Shown here: positions 10,024 to 18,491 of the stretch, piece after piece
Numbering within the stretch: position 1 is the first letter of the stretch
How the letters are laid out: each line of letters starts with the position of its first letter
Assembly (NCBI GenBank): GCA_009840445.1
Contig: VXNS01000021.1
Location: forward strand, 1 to 64,000
Direction: 5' to 3'
Source of the DNA: Synechococcus sp. SB0662_bin_14
GTDB taxonomy: Bacteria > Cyanobacteriota > Cyanobacteriia > PCC-6307 > Cyanobiaceae
Length of the DNA stretch: 64,000 bases
Notes under the pieces: generated by a model
The model's input: the letters and a program-made list of their open reading frames with translations, nothing else
Told to the model about the DNA's origin: nothing
Database searches by the model: none
Program-made: the position numbers and the translations under genes

Positions 10024-10806
10024 ATGGACAACATGAACGGCAACACTGTTGATCTTCAGACCCTCTTGCCCGCCTCCCCCGAGGAGCGGCTCATCCTGGC
10101 GCTGGATGGGTGTGACGGGGAGGGGGCCATGGCGCTGGTGGAGGGGATCTCCGGCTTGTGCTGGGTGAAGGTGGGCCTCGAACTGTTCATCAGCGCAGGG
10201 CCGGGCATTGTGACCCAACTGCGCAGCCGGGGCCTTCGGGTGTTTCTGGATCTGAAGTTTCACGACATTCCCGCCACCATGGCTGCCGCCTGCTGCCGTG
10301 CCGCCCGGCTTGGGGCCAGTCTGCTGACGGTCCATGCCAGCGCCGGCACGGAGGCCATGGCCATGGCCCAGCACGCTGCCGCCGAGGCCGCCACCACTGC
10401 CAGCCTGCCGCCACCACTGTTGTTGGCGGTCACCGTCCTCACCAGTTGGCGACCTCAATCCTTCCGCCAGCAACTGGCCGTTGCGGATCCCCTGCCGGCC
10501 CATGTGGAACACTTGGCGCGATTGGCTGCCCAGGCCGGTCTCCGTGGCTGCGTCTGCTCTCCCCGGGATGCCGCCCGGCTCCACCGCCAGCAGCCCGCCA
10601 TGGCCCTGGTCACCCCCGGCATCCGCCCCCACCCCGTCCAGGGAGACGACCAGGCCCGCACCATGACGCCCGCCGAGGCCATGACCTCGGGCGCCACATG
10701 GCTGGTGGTGGGGCGGCCCGTGACCCAGGCGGTGAATCCTGGCTTGGCGTTTGCCCAACTCTGCCAGCAGGTTGCCGCCACTGCTCCCCCTTGCCCCGCG
10801 CCCTAG
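10024..10806 (+). CDS. pyrF: Orotidine 5'-phosphate decarboxylase
   Basis: 260 residues. The TIM-barrel enzyme makes UMP from OMP in pyrimidine synthesis. The catalytic Asp-x-Lys-x-x-x-Asp array appears as DLKFHDIP (76-83), preceded by ILALDG and WVKVGLELF, the other conserved strand ends; phosphate binding is near VVGRPVT at the C-terminus. An in-frame ATG at 10033 is an alternative start. Its TAG stop is convergent with the autotransporter stop and both are read from the same CTAG, a four-base overlap. Confidence 0.95.
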   Translation: MDNMNGNTVDLQTLLPASPEERLILALDGCDGEGAMALVEGISGLCWVKVGLELFISAGPGIVTQLRSRGLRVFLDLKFHDIPATMAAACCRAARLGASLLTVHASAGTEAMAMAQHAAAEAATTASLPPPLLLAVTVLTSWRPQSFRQQLAVADPLPAHVEHLARLAAQAGLRGCVCSPRDAARLHRQQPAMALVTPGIRPHPVQGDDQARTMTPAEAMTSGATWLVVGRPVTQAVNPGLAFAQLCQQVAATAPPCPAP

Positions 10807-13670
10807 AACTGCGTTCCGAGGCGCAGGCTGGCAGTGTAGTGGTTATCGGCGGAGCCCAGGGCGGACGCGGCAACCTCTCCACCCAGCGACCACCGGTTCC
10901 AGTGGTAGGTTGCACCCAGGCCCAGCACCAGCCTGGTGCGGTCAGCTTCCGAGCCAAGGCGCTCACCCGAGACCTCCACGACTGTTTCCGGGTCCCCCAA
11001 TACCTGTTCGACCCCCAGCCGCCCCCGCAGGTTGAGGCTCCGTTGCCCGTCGTCCCACACGTGTGTGGTTTCCGTGACGACGCCGAGGCCAGCGATGGAC
11101 TGCGCTGCCTCCCGGAGCGAGAACCGTGACCCAACGGTGTCCTGGAAGTTGTCCATGGAAACGTCCGAGTGGGTCAACCAGGCCTGGGGCGTGATCGACA
11201 GACGGTCAGCCAGCAGGAAACGCCGTCCCGCTTCAATGCCGAAGGTGCGGACTGTTGCATCCACGTCATCTTTCAGTATGCCCCGGACATCCGCCCGCAA
11301 GTCCGTTTCGTAGCGGGTCAGCGAGATGCTGCCGCTGGCATAGTAGCCGTCGGTGTTGTCCCAGGAGATCCCGGCCGACCCACCGAAGCCCGAAGCGTCG
11401 ATTGTGCCGCCGCCCGTCGGCGCGGACACGTCCGCCGAACCTTGCACATGGCGCAGCGAGGCCCAACCGGCCATGTTCCCCTCTCGGGGAAGGGCAAACT
11501 CCACCCCCGCCTCAGTCTCGAAGTGGCTGAAATCGTAACCCGCGCCCACGTGGGAGTGATCCGGTTCGTAGGAGCCCTGGCCGCCCGCAACCTTGATCCA
11601 TAGGGGCGAATCGGGAATGCGCAGCCGCGTCCCGGCTGCTTCCCTCTGATCCAGTCGCAGCATGAATCCAGACAACGCCTCGTAGACCGCTGCACGGGGT
11701 GCGTAGGAAGCCACGAAATCCTCCCGCCGGAATACCCGTCCCGCAACGGTCTCCGAAGCCGTAAGGGATACGTCGCGGGCGCCGAATGGCGCCACCGCAC
11801 CGGTGGCGCCCGTATCGTCATGCAGGGTCACATCGTTGACCGCGATCCTTGTCCTGCCGTCGTCGTTTCTGATCTCGCCCATGATCACCTCGCTCGGCAG
11901 GCGTCCGTCCAGCACCACTTCAACACGCAGTGCGGCTCCCTCTCCCTCGGCCGACACGGCAACACCGGAGTCTGCTCCAACGCTACCGTGGGGGCCAATC
12001 TCGACCAGGCCTCCACCGTACATCCGGACGCCCGCCGCCACCACAGGTGCGTCTGAGCCTGGGCAGGAATCACAGATGCCGCCGCCCCGCACCCGCCCGT
12101 TCACAACCACACGCTGCGGGCGGATGCCCGTCCGCAAGGGGTCACCCGAACCGTCCCCATCTATCGTGGGGATCTGCACACCGGCGGGCGCCTCGACCGG
12201 CCTCGTCCTGCTGCCGACTCTCCGGCCGGTGAGGCCCACAAGGATGCCGGAGCTACCCGGTCCCTGGGCTGTAATCGTCCCGCCGTCCACGTTCACGCCA
12301 ATTGTGCCTTCGCCCGAGAAGTTGAACGACCGAATGCCGGCCACTTGTTCTCCCGTGACCGTAATCATCGAATCGTGAACGCTAATGGCGATATCACCCG
12401 TGCCCTCGTAGCGTTGGCCGCCGCCAATCCCTACGGAACGGTCGCCCTCCACCTTGATATCCACCTCTCGAGCGCCTATGTCGATATTGCCGTCGCCGTC
12501 ATGCACGAAGGCCATCCCGCCTGAGTCTGCACCGGTCACCATAATATCGGCGCGGTGTACATCAACGTCAATGGCTCCTGTACCCCTGTGGGTACCAAAA
12601 ATGCCATCCAGGCGTCCTTTACCGCTGACCTGAATGTTCACGTCTCGGGCATCAATGGAGAGGTCACCTGTCGAGTCTTTTCTCCAATAGGCATAAATTA
12701 TACCGTTCGAGAAGAATTCATCTCCACGAACTTGAATATCTGCATCTCGCACGTTGATGGTGGAGTTGCCGTGGCCAAGATGAAAGCCGTAAATTCCCTC
12801 TATTCTGATTTTGCTGCTGACATCTATGGTGACGTCTTGGACATTGACGTCAACGTCTCCGTTGCCACCATGCCCACCGAAAACGCCAGCGGTCCAAGAG
12901 GAGGAATTGATCGTGATTTCGGAGTCCTGCACAGCCACGTCAAAGTCGCCCTCGCCGCCATGGAATCCAACAATGCCGCCACCGGCCCACGCCCCGTCAT
13001 CATCCTCGTCAATGGAAAGACTGCTATCAATGGAAACGTTGCGAATAAAAAGATTGTGGTCGCCTCTGAACTCTTCGTTGGCGCCATAACCATCACCAGT
13101 GTAGCTATCAATTGCATGAGGTTGCGACCATCCACTCTTGATCGAGAAGGATCCACCCGAGATTTCCGTGTGCAATGTACCCGACTTTCCATGATGACCA
13201 ACTGAAATACCTCTCCCGTCCGAAATCACGTTTGCGGAAGAAAACACCGAAATATCGCTCCCATACTCTGCATCCGTCTCGATCCTGACGGCGCTGTAGA
13301 GAGACCTCTCGCTGTCGAGCGGGCTGAAAAACAGACGGTCGTCGTTGGGGTCCTCAAGGGTGTAGGCTATCGAGAGGTCGTCGACAAATCGAATGACAAA
13401 TCCCCCTCCGTCCCCGTTGGCGAGGCGGTATACGATGTTGCCCTCTGTGGCCGCATCGTAGTTGGAGGGTGAGCAAATGACCGACGCTCCAGCACTTTGG
13501 GGCCGACCACATTCCTCCTCTGCCCGCACCGCACCACAGACATCGAGCACGAGGATCGCGACGATGACAGCGATACCGAATGATGGGCGCCTTGAGCAAC
13601 ATCTCCCCCCAGCCCTCCACTGGCCAGGAAGGGCTGGCACTTCATGGTCGTCAGCCTTGTACCTGTCCAT
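10803..13670 (-). CDS. Autotransporter with beta-helix passenger, copy 1
   Basis: About 955 residues from the ATG at 13670, which gives a long (about 50-residue) signal sequence ending VRA-EEEC, a type common in autotransporters; an in-frame ATG at 13733 is possible. The passenger is a series of loosely repeated units of about 35 residues with the pattern G-x-I-x-V-x(4)-I-x-V-x-G-x(4)-GI, consistent with a right-handed beta-helix. The last 270 residues are an autotransporter barrel, ending in LRLGTQF with the terminal Phe needed for BAM recognition. Expected to sit in the outer membrane with the passenger at the surface; adhesion or host contact is a guess. A paralog of the same layout lies directly upstream (13871-16777). 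Confidence 0.85.
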   Translation of the reverse strand: MDRYKADDHEVPALPGQWRAGGRCCSRRPSFGIAVIVAILVLDVCGAVRAEEECGRPQSAGASVICSPSNYDAATEGNIVYRLANGDGGGFVIRFVDDLSIAYTLEDPNDDRLFFSPLDSERSLYSAVRIETDAEYGSDISVFSSANVISDGRGISVGHHGKSGTLHTEISGGSFSIKSGWSQPHAIDSYTGDGYGANEEFRGDHNLFIRNVSIDSSLSIDEDDDGAWAGGGIVGFHGGEGDFDVAVQDSEITINSSSWTAGVFGGHGGNGDVDVNVQDVTIDVSSKIRIEGIYGFHLGHGNSTINVRDADIQVRGDEFFSNGIIYAYWRKDSTGDLSIDARDVNIQVSGKGRLDGIFGTHRGTGAIDVDVHRADIMVTGADSGGMAFVHDGDGNIDIGAREVDIKVEGDRSVGIGGGQRYEGTGDIAISVHDSMITVTGEQVAGIRSFNFSGEGTIGVNVDGGTITAQGPGSSGILVGLTGRRVGSRTRPVEAPAGVQIPTIDGDGSGDPLRTGIRPQRVVVNGRVRGGGICDSCPGSDAPVVAAGVRMYGGGLVEIGPHGSVGADSGVAVSAEGEGAALRVEVVLDGRLPSEVIMGEIRNDDGRTRIAVNDVTLHDDTGATGAVAPFGARDVSLTASETVAGRVFRREDFVASYAPRAAVYEALSGFMLRLDQREAAGTRLRIPDSPLWIKVAGGQGSYEPDHSHVGAGYDFSHFETEAGVEFALPREGNMAGWASLRHVQGSADVSAPTGGGTIDASGFGGSAGISWDNTDGYYASGSISLTRYETDLRADVRGILKDDVDATVRTFGIEAGRRFLLADRLSITPQAWLTHSDVSMDNFQDTVGSRFSLREAAQSIAGLGVVTETTHVWDDGQRSLNLRGRLGVEQVLGDPETVVEVSGERLGSEADRTRLVLGLGATYHWNRWSLGGEVAASALGSADNHYTASLRLGTQF
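12301..12481. repeat. 181-bp identical tract, copy in autotransporter 1
   Basis: Identical base for base to 15372-15552 in the neighbouring paralog, while flanking sequence differs every few bases. It encodes passenger repeat units around the VKVEGDRSVGIGGGQR and VTGEQVAGIRSF segments. Direct repeats of this length in tandem are likely substrates for recombination. Confidence 0.95.
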
Positions 13671-13710
13671 ACCTGTAACCGGCTTTCTGATGGTGCAAGA
13701 AGGTTGTGGA

Positions 13711-13716
13711 ATTCTA
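13711..13716 (-). promoter_or_regulatory. Possible -10 box for autotransporter copy 1
   Basis: TAGAAT on the minus strand, 40 bases before the ATG at 13670. No strong -35 is seen. If used, it would exclude the longer start at 13733 and support the start chosen for the gene. Confidence 0.25.
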
Positions 13717-13870
13717 GCAGGGTCAGGACTCATCACCTGACCAGCCAGACGGGGCCAGCCACAAGAGAGTCCGTTACAGCAAGAGGCTCTACAGAGTATC
13801 CATAGGGATAGGGACCGGCATCCCGTTACAACACGCTACGACCATCGTGCATCCATATTTTGGTTACAGG

Positions 13871-16777
13871 CTAGAACTGGGTTCCGAGGCGAAGGCTGGC
13901 GGTGTAGTGGTTATCGGCGGAGCCCAGGGCGGAGGCGGCAACCTCTCCATCCAGCGACCACCGACTCCAGAGATAGCTTGCACCCAGGCCCAGCACCGCC
14001 CGTGTCTGCGCTGGTTCCGAGCCAAGGCGCTCGCCCGAGACTTCCACGACTGTCTCCCCATCTCCCAACCCCTGCTCGACCCCCAGCCAGCCACGCAGGT
14101 GGAGCGTCCGTTGCTCCTGGTCCTGGTTCCAGACATGTGTGGTTTCCGTGAGGACGCCGATTCCAGCCATGGATTGCGCTGCGTCTCCGAGGGAAACGCG
14201 GGAGCCAACGTCGTCCTGGAAGTTGTCCATGGAAAGATCCGCGTGGGTCCACCATGCCTGGGGGGTGATGAATAGACGATCAGACAGGGAGAAACGCCGG
14301 CCCGCTTCGATCCCGAAGGAGCGAACGGTTGCATCCACGTCGTCTTTGAGCGTGCCCCGCCCGTTCGAGTGCAGATCCATCTCGTAGCGGGTCAGGGAGA
14401 CGCTTCCGGTGGCGTAATAGCCGGCGGTGTTTTCCCACGAGAGACCGGCTGAGGCGCCGAGGCCGGAGGCCTCGATTGTCCCGCCTCCCGTCGGCGCAGA
14501 CACGTCTGCCGAGCCTTTCACGTGACGCAGCCCAGCCCAACCGGTGATGTTCCCCTGTTGGGACAGGGCAAACTCCAGACCGGCTTCGGCGCCGAAGTGG
14601 TTGAAATCGTACGTTCCACCCACCTGGGAGCGGTCCGGTTTGTAGGCACCCTGTCCGCCGGAAACCTTGACCCATACGGGGGAACCGGATAGGGGCAGCC
14701 GTGGCCCGGTTGTTTCTGCTCCCTGGTGGAGCCGCAGCATGAATCCGGGCAACGTCTCGTAGACCGCTGCACGCGGCGCGTAGGCGCTGCTCTTAAAGTC
14801 TGTCAGCTTGAACGTACGCCCCTTCACGTTCTGCGAGGACTCAAGGGATACATCCCGTGCCCCGTTCGGCGCCAGAGCGCCGGTTGCGCCCGTCATGCCG
14901 TCATGGAGAACCACCCCGTTGACCGTGATGGTGGTCCTGCCGTCATCATTTCTGATCTCGCCCGTGATCCCCTCACTGGGACGGCGACCGTTAAACGCCA
15001 CATGTAGAGCTGCACCCTCTCCCTCAGCCGACACGGCCACACCGGAGTCCGCACCGACGCTGCCGCGGGGGCCAATCTCAACCCGGCCCCCACCGTACAT
15101 CCGGACGCCGGCCCCCGCCACAGGTGCGTCTGAGCCTGGGCAGGAATCACAGATGCCGCCGCCCCGCACCCGCCCGTTCACAACCACACGCTGCGGGCGA
15201 TTGCCGCCCAAGGCGTTGTTACCGGATCTGTCCGCCGGCGAGACCTGCACACCGACGGGTGCTACAATCGGCCCCATCCTGTCGCCGAATATCCGGCCGG
15301 TGAGGCCCACAAGGATGCCGGAACTACCCGGTCCCTGGGCTGTAACCGTCCCACCGTCCACGTTCACGTCGATTGTGCCTTCGCCCGAGAAGTTGAACGA
15401 CCGAATGCCGGCCACTTGTTCTCCCGTGACCGTAATCATCGAATCGTGAACGCTAATGGCGATATCACCCGTGCCCTCGTAGCGTTGGCCGCCGCCAATC
15501 CCTACGGAACGGTCGCCCTCCACCTTGATATCCACCTCTCGAGCGCCTATGTTGATATTGCCCGTGCTGTCATGCACGAAGGCTATCCCGCCTGAGTCTG
15601 CACCGGTCACCACAATATCGGCGCGGTGTACATCAACGTCAATGGCTCCTGTATTCCCATTGTATCGACCAAAAATCCCATCGAGATATCTTTCGCCGCT
15701 GACCTGGATGTTCACGTCTTGGGCATCAATGGAGAGGTCACCTGCTGCATCCTCCCCCCAATAGGAATAGGCAATACCATTCGAGTATTGTGTTCCGCGA
15801 ATTTCAATATCGGTATCTCGCACGTTGATGGTGGAGTTGCCGCGGCCAAGGTGAAAGCCGTAAATCCCATCGATCGTGTCGCCTTCGTCGCTGAGGCTTA
15901 TGGTGACATCTTGGACATTGACGTCAACGTCTCCTTCACTACCGGCGTGGGCAGCGACAACGCCAGTGGCCCAACGGGAGTTGACCTTGATTGCGGAATC
16001 CTGTACAGTGATGCTCAAGTCGCCCTCGGCGTTCTGGACTCCACCGATGCCGGTACTCCATCCGCCACTCTCGTCATCCATGGAAACGTTGCTGTCAATG
16101 ACAACGTTGCGGACGACGAGATTGTGGTCGCCGCTGAACTCCTCACCTGTTCGACGACCGTCGCCGCGGTAGCTATAGATTGCATGAGGGTAGTACCATT
16201 CACTCTCAATCGAGAAGGATCCACCCGAGATTTCCGTGTTCAATGCACCCGATTTCCCGTGGTGGAAGACCGAAATACCTCTCCCGTCCGAAATCACGTT
16301 TGCGGAAGAAAACACCGAAATATCGCCCGCGTAATCAGCATCCGTCTCGATCCTGACGGCGCTGTAGAGAGGTCGCCTCCCGCTGTCGGCGGTGGGATGG
16401 TAGAAAAGAGAGTCGTCGTCTGGGTCGTCGCTACTATAGCTTATCGAGAGATCCTCAACGAATCGGATGACAAAATCCCCGTCCCCGTTGGCAAGGTGGT
16501 ACACGATGTTGCCTTCCGTGACCGCATCATAGTTGGAGGATGAACAAATGATCGACCTTCCGGGGCTTGGAGGCGGACCGCATTCCTCCTCTGCCCGCGC
16601 CGCGCCACAGACGCCGAGGAGGGCGGTCAAGGCGATGGCGGCGGCGCCCAACGGAGACACATGAAAATGTACCTTTTCCCCAACCGGAAAGGCGGCTGGT
16701 TCATATAACTTATAACTCTCCTCGGCTAGAGCTCTTGACAAGTCGTGGAGAGCTGGATTGGAGCAAGGAGAGTCCAT
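13871..16777 (-). CDS. Autotransporter with beta-helix passenger, copy 2
   Basis: 968 residues from the ATG at 16777 (a GTG precedes it at 16780). A signal region with hydrophobic core PLGAAAIALTALLGVCGAARA is followed by EEECG, then a repeat-rich beta-helix passenger and a C-terminal barrel ending LRLGTQF. Domain order, cysteines (VICS/IICS, GGGICDSCPGSD) and barrel match copy 1 throughout. Divergence is greatest in the first third of the passenger; a block in the middle is identical at DNA level. A promoter with 17-base spacing lies just upstream. It is outer-membrane anchored; the passenger's target is unknown. Confidence 0.85.
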   Translation of the reverse strand: MDSPCSNPALHDLSRALAEESYKLYEPAAFPVGEKVHFHVSPLGAAAIALTALLGVCGAARAEEECGPPPSPGRSIICSSSNYDAVTEGNIVYHLANGDGDFVIRFVEDLSISYSSDDPDDDSLFYHPTADSGRRPLYSAVRIETDADYAGDISVFSSANVISDGRGISVFHHGKSGALNTEISGGSFSIESEWYYPHAIYSYRGDGRRTGEEFSGDHNLVVRNVVIDSNVSMDDESGGWSTGIGGVQNAEGDLSITVQDSAIKVNSRWATGVVAAHAGSEGDVDVNVQDVTISLSDEGDTIDGIYGFHLGRGNSTINVRDTDIEIRGTQYSNGIAYSYWGEDAAGDLSIDAQDVNIQVSGERYLDGIFGRYNGNTGAIDVDVHRADIVVTGADSGGIAFVHDSTGNINIGAREVDIKVEGDRSVGIGGGQRYEGTGDIAISVHDSMITVTGEQVAGIRSFNFSGEGTIDVNVDGGTVTAQGPGSSGILVGLTGRIFGDRMGPIVAPVGVQVSPADRSGNNALGGNRPQRVVVNGRVRGGGICDSCPGSDAPVAGAGVRMYGGGRVEIGPRGSVGADSGVAVSAEGEGAALHVAFNGRRPSEGITGEIRNDDGRTTITVNGVVLHDGMTGATGALAPNGARDVSLESSQNVKGRTFKLTDFKSSAYAPRAAVYETLPGFMLRLHQGAETTGPRLPLSGSPVWVKVSGGQGAYKPDRSQVGGTYDFNHFGAEAGLEFALSQQGNITGWAGLRHVKGSADVSAPTGGGTIEASGLGASAGLSWENTAGYYATGSVSLTRYEMDLHSNGRGTLKDDVDATVRSFGIEAGRRFSLSDRLFITPQAWWTHADLSMDNFQDDVGSRVSLGDAAQSMAGIGVLTETTHVWNQDQEQRTLHLRGWLGVEQGLGDGETVVEVSGERLGSEPAQTRAVLGLGASYLWSRWSLDGEVAASALGSADNHYTASLRLGTQF
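15372..15552. repeat. 181-bp identical tract, copy in autotransporter 2
   Basis: Partner of 12301-12481, 3,071 bases apart in direct orientation. A second shorter near-identical block covers the GGGICDSCPGSD region (about 12043-12121 and 15118-15196). Confidence 0.95.
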
Positions 16778-16804
16778 CACAAAAATTTGAATAGAGGAAG
16801 CCCT

Positions 16805-17540: not shown

Positions 17541-18491
17541 TTGTCCCAGTCCCAAGCCCCAGCCCCGACGGTCAAGGGTGACCACGGCGTCGCCCCACCT
17601 CCTCCGGGATATCGCTCCGGTTTTGTGGCCCTGATCGGGCGCCCCAACGTGGGCAAGTCCACGCTGCTCAACCAACTGGTGGGCCATAAGGTGGCCATCA
17701 CCTCCCCTGTGGCCCAGACAACCCGCAACCGCCTGCGGGGCATTCTGACCCGCGCCACGGCCCAGTTGGTGCTGCTGGACACCCCCGGTATTCACAAGCC
17801 CCACCACCTGCTGGGGGAGCACTTGGTGAAGGTGGCGCGTTCAACCCTTGGTGAGGTGGATCTGGTGTTGCTGCTCATGGACGGCAGCACGCCACCAGGC
17901 CGTGGAGATGCCTACATCGTCCAACTGCTGCGCCACTGTGCTGCGCCGTTGGCGGTGGGTCTCAACAAGCAGGACCTGGTCACCCCCAAGCGGGCCGCAG
18001 AGTTGCAGCGCAGCTACCGCAGCCTGGTGGGTGGTTGTCCGTTCTTTGGTTTCAGCGCCTTGAGTGGCGTTGGCTGTGAACAGTTGGTGGAGGGCCTGAG
18101 CCAACGTCTACCGGAGGGACCTCACCTTTACCCGCCCCATGCCGTCAGTGATCAGCCGGAACGTCTGCTGCTCGCGGAGCAGATTCGGGAACAGGTGTTG
18201 CACCTGACCCGGGAAGAGGTGCCCCACAGTGTGGCTGTGCGCATTGACGACATCCGGGAAGAGCGCCACTGCACCCGCGTCACCGCCGTGGTGCTTGTGG
18301 AGCGCAGTAGCCAGAAGGGGATTCTCATCGGCAAGGGGGGGGGCATGCTGAAAGCCATCGGCACCGCTGCACGGTTGCAGATGCAGACCTTGATTGCCGG
18401 TCCCGTGCATCTGGAGTTGTTTGTCAAGGTGTCTCCCCACTGGCGCCGTCACCCGGGACGCCTGGCGGAGCTGGGCTATGGCAATGGGTGA
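17541..18491 (+). CDS. era: GTPase Era
   Basis: About 316 residues if translation starts at the TTG at 17541. No ATG lies in frame between 17409 and the G1 motif, so the start is uncertain. G1 GRPNVGKST, G3 DTPG, G4 NKQD and the C-terminal KH domain with ILIGKGGGMLK are all present. Era binds the 3' end of 16S rRNA and aids 30S assembly at the membrane periphery. The final eight bases overlap the phycobilin lyase gene, beginning a run of overlapping genes that continues through trmD, ispF and larB. Confidence 0.93.
   Translation: MSQSQAPAPTVKGDHGVAPPPPGYRSGFVALIGRPNVGKSTLLNQLVGHKVAITSPVAQTTRNRLRGILTRATAQLVLLDTPGIHKPHHLLGEHLVKVARSTLGEVDLVLLLMDGSTPPGRGDAYIVQLLRHCAAPLAVGLNKQDLVTPKRAAELQRSYRSLVGGCPFFGFSALSGVGCEQLVEGLSQRLPEGPHLYPPHAVSDQPERLLLAEQIREQVLHLTREEVPHSVAVRIDDIREERHCTRVTAVVLVERSSQKGILIGKGGGMLKAIGTAARLQMQTLIAGPVHLELFVKVSPHWRRHPGRLAELGYGNG

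Follow-up and report, generated by a model that had tools for sequence, protein, structure and literature searches.

We analysed a 64-kb stretch of DNA (the window) from contig C36. The draft genome to which it belongs comprises 2.16 Mb in 85 contigs and is 99.6% complete. This source genome lies within the 'Ca. Synechococcus spongiarum' genus of sponge-symbiotic cyanobacteria.

Two autotransporter genes between pyrF and era

The window contains two autotransporter genes flanked by pyrF (10024-10806, plus strand) and era (17556-18491, plus strand), which were named from their protein sequences and serve as synteny markers for the two sides of the locus. Gene A (10803-13736, 977 aa) adjoins pyrF, and gene B (13871-16780, 969 aa) lies on the era side of it. 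Both open reading frames are on the minus strand, and B is therefore the upstream copy and A the downstream one. This agrees with the original prediction of two autotransporter genes lying head to tail. Both proteins score above the cut-off for PF03797, the C-terminal autotransporter barrel (E=5e-28 for A, E=5.7e-23 for B), and match the profile over nearly its full length. The overall identity between the two proteins, which can be taken as the background, is 74%. A hydrophobic stretch coincides with a predicted helix at residues 56-76 of A, whose start codon is uncertain. A and B are best explained as type Va-like autotransporters that consist of a putative signal region, a predicted beta-solenoid passenger and a C-terminal PF03797 barrel.

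The source genome has only these two copies of the gene, and both are open reading frames. Three more, weaker PF03797 matches (C62:43810-44382, C12:129-476 and C47:14776-15186) sit in long open frames (831-1222 aa) and are beyond the reach of a search with protein B. Across the order, PF03797 is present in 66 of the 200 genomes sampled, and autotransporters are thus not peculiar to sponge symbionts.

Discrete blocks of identity between A and B

The 181-bp tract that had been noted in the two genes (tract 1 core; 12301-12481 in A, 15372-15552 in B, minus strand) is indeed shared without a single difference, and the bases at both of its edges differ. No exact direct repeat in the window is longer, and all eight direct repeats of at least 30 bp found there are between A and B. 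The second block, described as shorter and near-identical, is in fact an exact run of 82 bp (tract 2; 12041-12122 in A, 15118-15199 in B, minus strand). A possible third tract of 55 bp (13204-13258 in A, minus strand) is identical to 16272-16326 in B. The tracts of A and B have the same orientation and are 3.07 kb apart.

Silent changes are scarce beyond the tract 1 core: a wider, putatively converted stretch of 92 codons in A (12303-12578, minus strand) has ~0.5 silent changes in 68 sites. It includes five amino-acid differences between A and B at 12482-12542, and since all five are amino-acid-changing, the edge of tract 1 is uncertain. Post-conversion positive selection at 12482-12542 was considered and rejected: the wider tract holds ~6.5 amino-acid-changing versus 0.5 silent changes, for which chance under a 3:1 site ratio is enough.

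Synonymous divergence along the two genes is non-uniform, with silent identity in discrete blocks only. The proportion of differing silent sites (pS) between A and B is 0.41 in the N-terminal part of the passenger, which is strongly diverged as predicted, 0.44 at 11610-12040 and 0.39 in the barrel. By contrast, pS is 0.00 in both the 181-bp core and tract 2, and 0.007 over 12303-12578. Between the two tracts it is 0.25, and this region includes a variable loop in A (12123-12221, minus strand, amino acids 506-538) with a pS of 0.37, a pN of 0.38, so that dN is about equal to dS, and a two-codon indel. The last 28 codons, which offer few sites, have a pS of 0.17. When polymorphic sites were shuffled, a run as long as 181 bp was obtained in none of 20,000 replicates (p<=5e-5). 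Likewise, the longest run of codons lacking a silent change is 93, compared to a maximum of 73 in 20,000 shuffles (p<=5e-5). Tract 2 is equally significant in shuffles from which tract 1 was excluded (p<=5e-5), and, once both tracts are left out, the 55-bp block at 13204-13258 has a p-value of 0.002.

Orthologues diverge normally within the tracts

The related genome G008 has a single-copy orthologue that likewise lies between pyrF and era, and a broken one is found in 'Candidatus Synechococcus spongiarum' SP3 (genome G005). Compared to G008, A and B have a pS of 0.35 in the tract 1 core and of 0.42 in tract 2; for SP3 the corresponding values are 0.30 and 0.47. The two orthologues differ from each other to a similar degree in the tract 1 core (pS 0.31), and a pS of 0.30-0.35 is ordinary for these species. 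Because the orthologues diverge normally in the very blocks in which A and B are identical, the identity results from exchange, as had been proposed from the silent sites of the tract, and not from constraint on the protein or the DNA. The distances of the tracts to G008 and SP3 were also tried as a guide to the direction of copying; donor and recipient are indistinguishable by them.

Position of the tracts in the predicted structure

The structure of A was modelled by AlphaFold2 with three sequences; no relative of solved structure was retrieved by a sequence search. The model predicts regular strands in a beta-solenoid-like arrangement at approximately residues 160-500, with a pLDDT of mostly 70-94, and is of low confidence elsewhere. 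Its mean pLDDT is 49 over the whole protein, of which the barrel part was not modelled. Of the PDB entries, that of the autotransporter Vag8 with C1 inhibitor is the best fold match (E=0.007), followed by Ag43 and UpaB, and all of these matches are weak. Tract 1 corresponds to residues 387-478 of A, within the well-modelled part of the predicted solenoid, and tract 2 to residues 539-565. The variable loop (residues 506-538) is part of a stretch that the model leaves disordered, with a pLDDT below 50 (residues 504-538). Tract 1 has homogenised the conserved predicted solenoid, and the most variable loop at 12123-12221 has been left out.

History of the genes and variation of the locus

The relationship of A and B to their orthologues shifts along the gene. 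In a tree of the passenger from four sequences (A, B, G008 and SP3), A and B group together with a bootstrap of 100. For the barrel, third-position distances put A near G008 and SP3 (0.24 and 0.22) and B far away (0.39-0.41). Four sequences cannot decide whether the barrel of B is old or fast-evolving, or whether an earlier exchange brought the passengers together.

The pyrF-era interval contains two autotransporter genes in the source genome, one in G008 and none in G001, G003 and G007. In SP3 and G002 at least part of one such gene is present at the locus, on broken contigs. In G009, G006 and G004 the pyrF and era sides are on different contigs and, where readable, next to other genes. The genome contigs were also scanned with protein B, which matched in SP3 only. 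As assembled, the SP3 copy (L012:6299-8850, G005:C54) is interrupted by a frameshift and an in-frame TGA, and its contig ends inside the gene; either the gene is decaying or the assembly is wrong. Moreover, SP3 has a transposase-like ORF downstream of pyrF. Another of its contigs has, next to a trmB-like gene, a terminal stretch of 32 aa that resembles the C-terminus of A and B (L013:8702-8797, G005:C57) and that is perhaps part of a second SP3 autotransporter of this family.

Recombination genes in the genus

We searched for the recombination genes RecA, RecO, RuvB and RecC. Each of the ten genomes of the genus, including the source genome, encodes RecA, RecO and RuvB. RecC (PF04257), however, was found in none of the ten, whereas 13 of the 15 other family members searched have it, and it was probably lost at the base of the symbiont genus. 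The exchange between A and B therefore probably ran without RecBCD. With RecC and hence RecBCD missing, the machinery may have been RecA together with RecFOR and RuvAB. Template switching that needs no RecA is another possibility for direct repeats this close.

According to the legend of a figure in a previous study, none of the 'Ca. S. spongiarum' genomes is capable of homologous recombination. The text of that study is more careful, reporting that RecBCD and exonuclease VII are absent and that the ability to recombine with other cyanobacteria may have been lost (PMC6506613). Considering the tracts and the RecA, RecO and RuvB genes in ten of ten genomes, the wording of the legend looks wrong.

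Discussion

The blockwise silent identity between A and B, which is absent from the comparisons with G008 and SP3, argues for the proposed exchange between tandem paralogues. We consider it very likely that A and B are old tandem paralogues and that recent recombination between them has transferred at least two short segments of the passenger, ~280 bp and ~80 bp long, from one to the other. 'Recent' is here based on ~0.5 silent changes in 68 sites, in one draft genome of 85 contigs. The tandem arrangement of the genes, in the same orientation and 3.07 kb apart, favours recombination. The copying may have been non-reciprocal conversion, perhaps in several events, and its effect would be that the solenoid core remains similar in the two genes, whereas the variable loop and the N-terminal part continue to differ.

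The closest competitor is unequal crossing-over that produces a transient third or chimeric copy, whose later deletion leaves a shared tract. Such events are possible between direct repeats 3.07 kb apart, and the copy number of the locus does vary in the genus, from two genes here to one in G008 and none in G001, G003 and G007. The presence of at least two tracts around a diverged loop, however, would demand several precisely placed crossovers, for which conversion is the simpler route, and we regard crossing-over as unlikely, even though the end product of the two routes is identical. An assembly artefact, in which one consensus was built from two copies that differ slightly, is less probable still. 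It is true that the draft assembly consists of 85 contigs and that 181 bp exceeds many short reads. The flanks, however, are placed once each, and two direct repeats allow a single linear path through all the pieces, which makes swapped flanks impossible. Moreover, there are no runs of N in the window, and merging would hardly yield two separate tracts, or an adjoining 90 bp in which amino-acid changes occur almost without silent ones.

The two remaining explanations can be dismissed with near certainty. There are antisense ORFs of 191 and 213 aa that cover part of the tract, and strong constraint on the DNA, on RNA or on such an ORF might in principle preserve it; yet 30-35% of the silent sites in the tract core differ when G008 and SP3 are compared to A and B. 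A recent duplication of the whole gene, the remainder of which then diverged fast by selection, would fit the grouping of A and B in the passenger. It is contradicted by the pS of 0.39-0.44 outside the tracts, which is about the level between species, and by the barrel of A, which is nearer to that of other species than to that of B.

Exchange between the paralogues thus being the preferred explanation, the locus provides a case of recent paralogue recombination in a genus in which RecC is missing from all ten genomes. It also identifies the pyrF-era interval as a site of surface-protein genes whose number differs from one related symbiont species to another. Involvement of A and B in interaction with the host would be conjectural. 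A far-reaching and rather improbable extension would be that A and B together serve the sponge symbiont as a working device for diversification: RecBCD-independent conversion would keep the solenoid scaffold uniform, so that variable loops and N-terminal parts could be recombined within the host, resulting in surface variants that affect recognition by sponge cells. An antigenic-variation cassette was also looked for, and silent donor copies were not found in the source genome, whose two copies are both open.

Our literature search found no description of this A/B pair; comparable processes are known from other bacteria. In Anaplasma, Borrelia and others, segmental gene conversion of surface antigens copies short segments and generates mosaics (PMC4534519). 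Here too, short segments were copied between surface-protein genes, but those systems combine silent donors with one expression site, whereas A and B are both intact. Tandem autotransporter genes are shared with Bartonella, whose clusters expand and contract via duplication and deletion (PMC2697382). What is described there are pathogen clusters of five to seven genes undergoing duplication and deletion, in contrast to a pair with short tracts. In Helicobacter pylori, gene conversion among the paralogous outer-membrane adhesin genes babA, babB and babC produces chimeras (PMC4552749). The likeness consists in conversion between paralogous genes for outer-membrane or surface proteins. The bab genes, however, are at separate loci and have phase-variable CT repeats, whereas A and B are tandem PF03797 autotransporter genes seen in one genome. 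Conversion between paralogues is a known bacterial route to reshuffled surface proteins, and the A/B pair is a new case of this known process.
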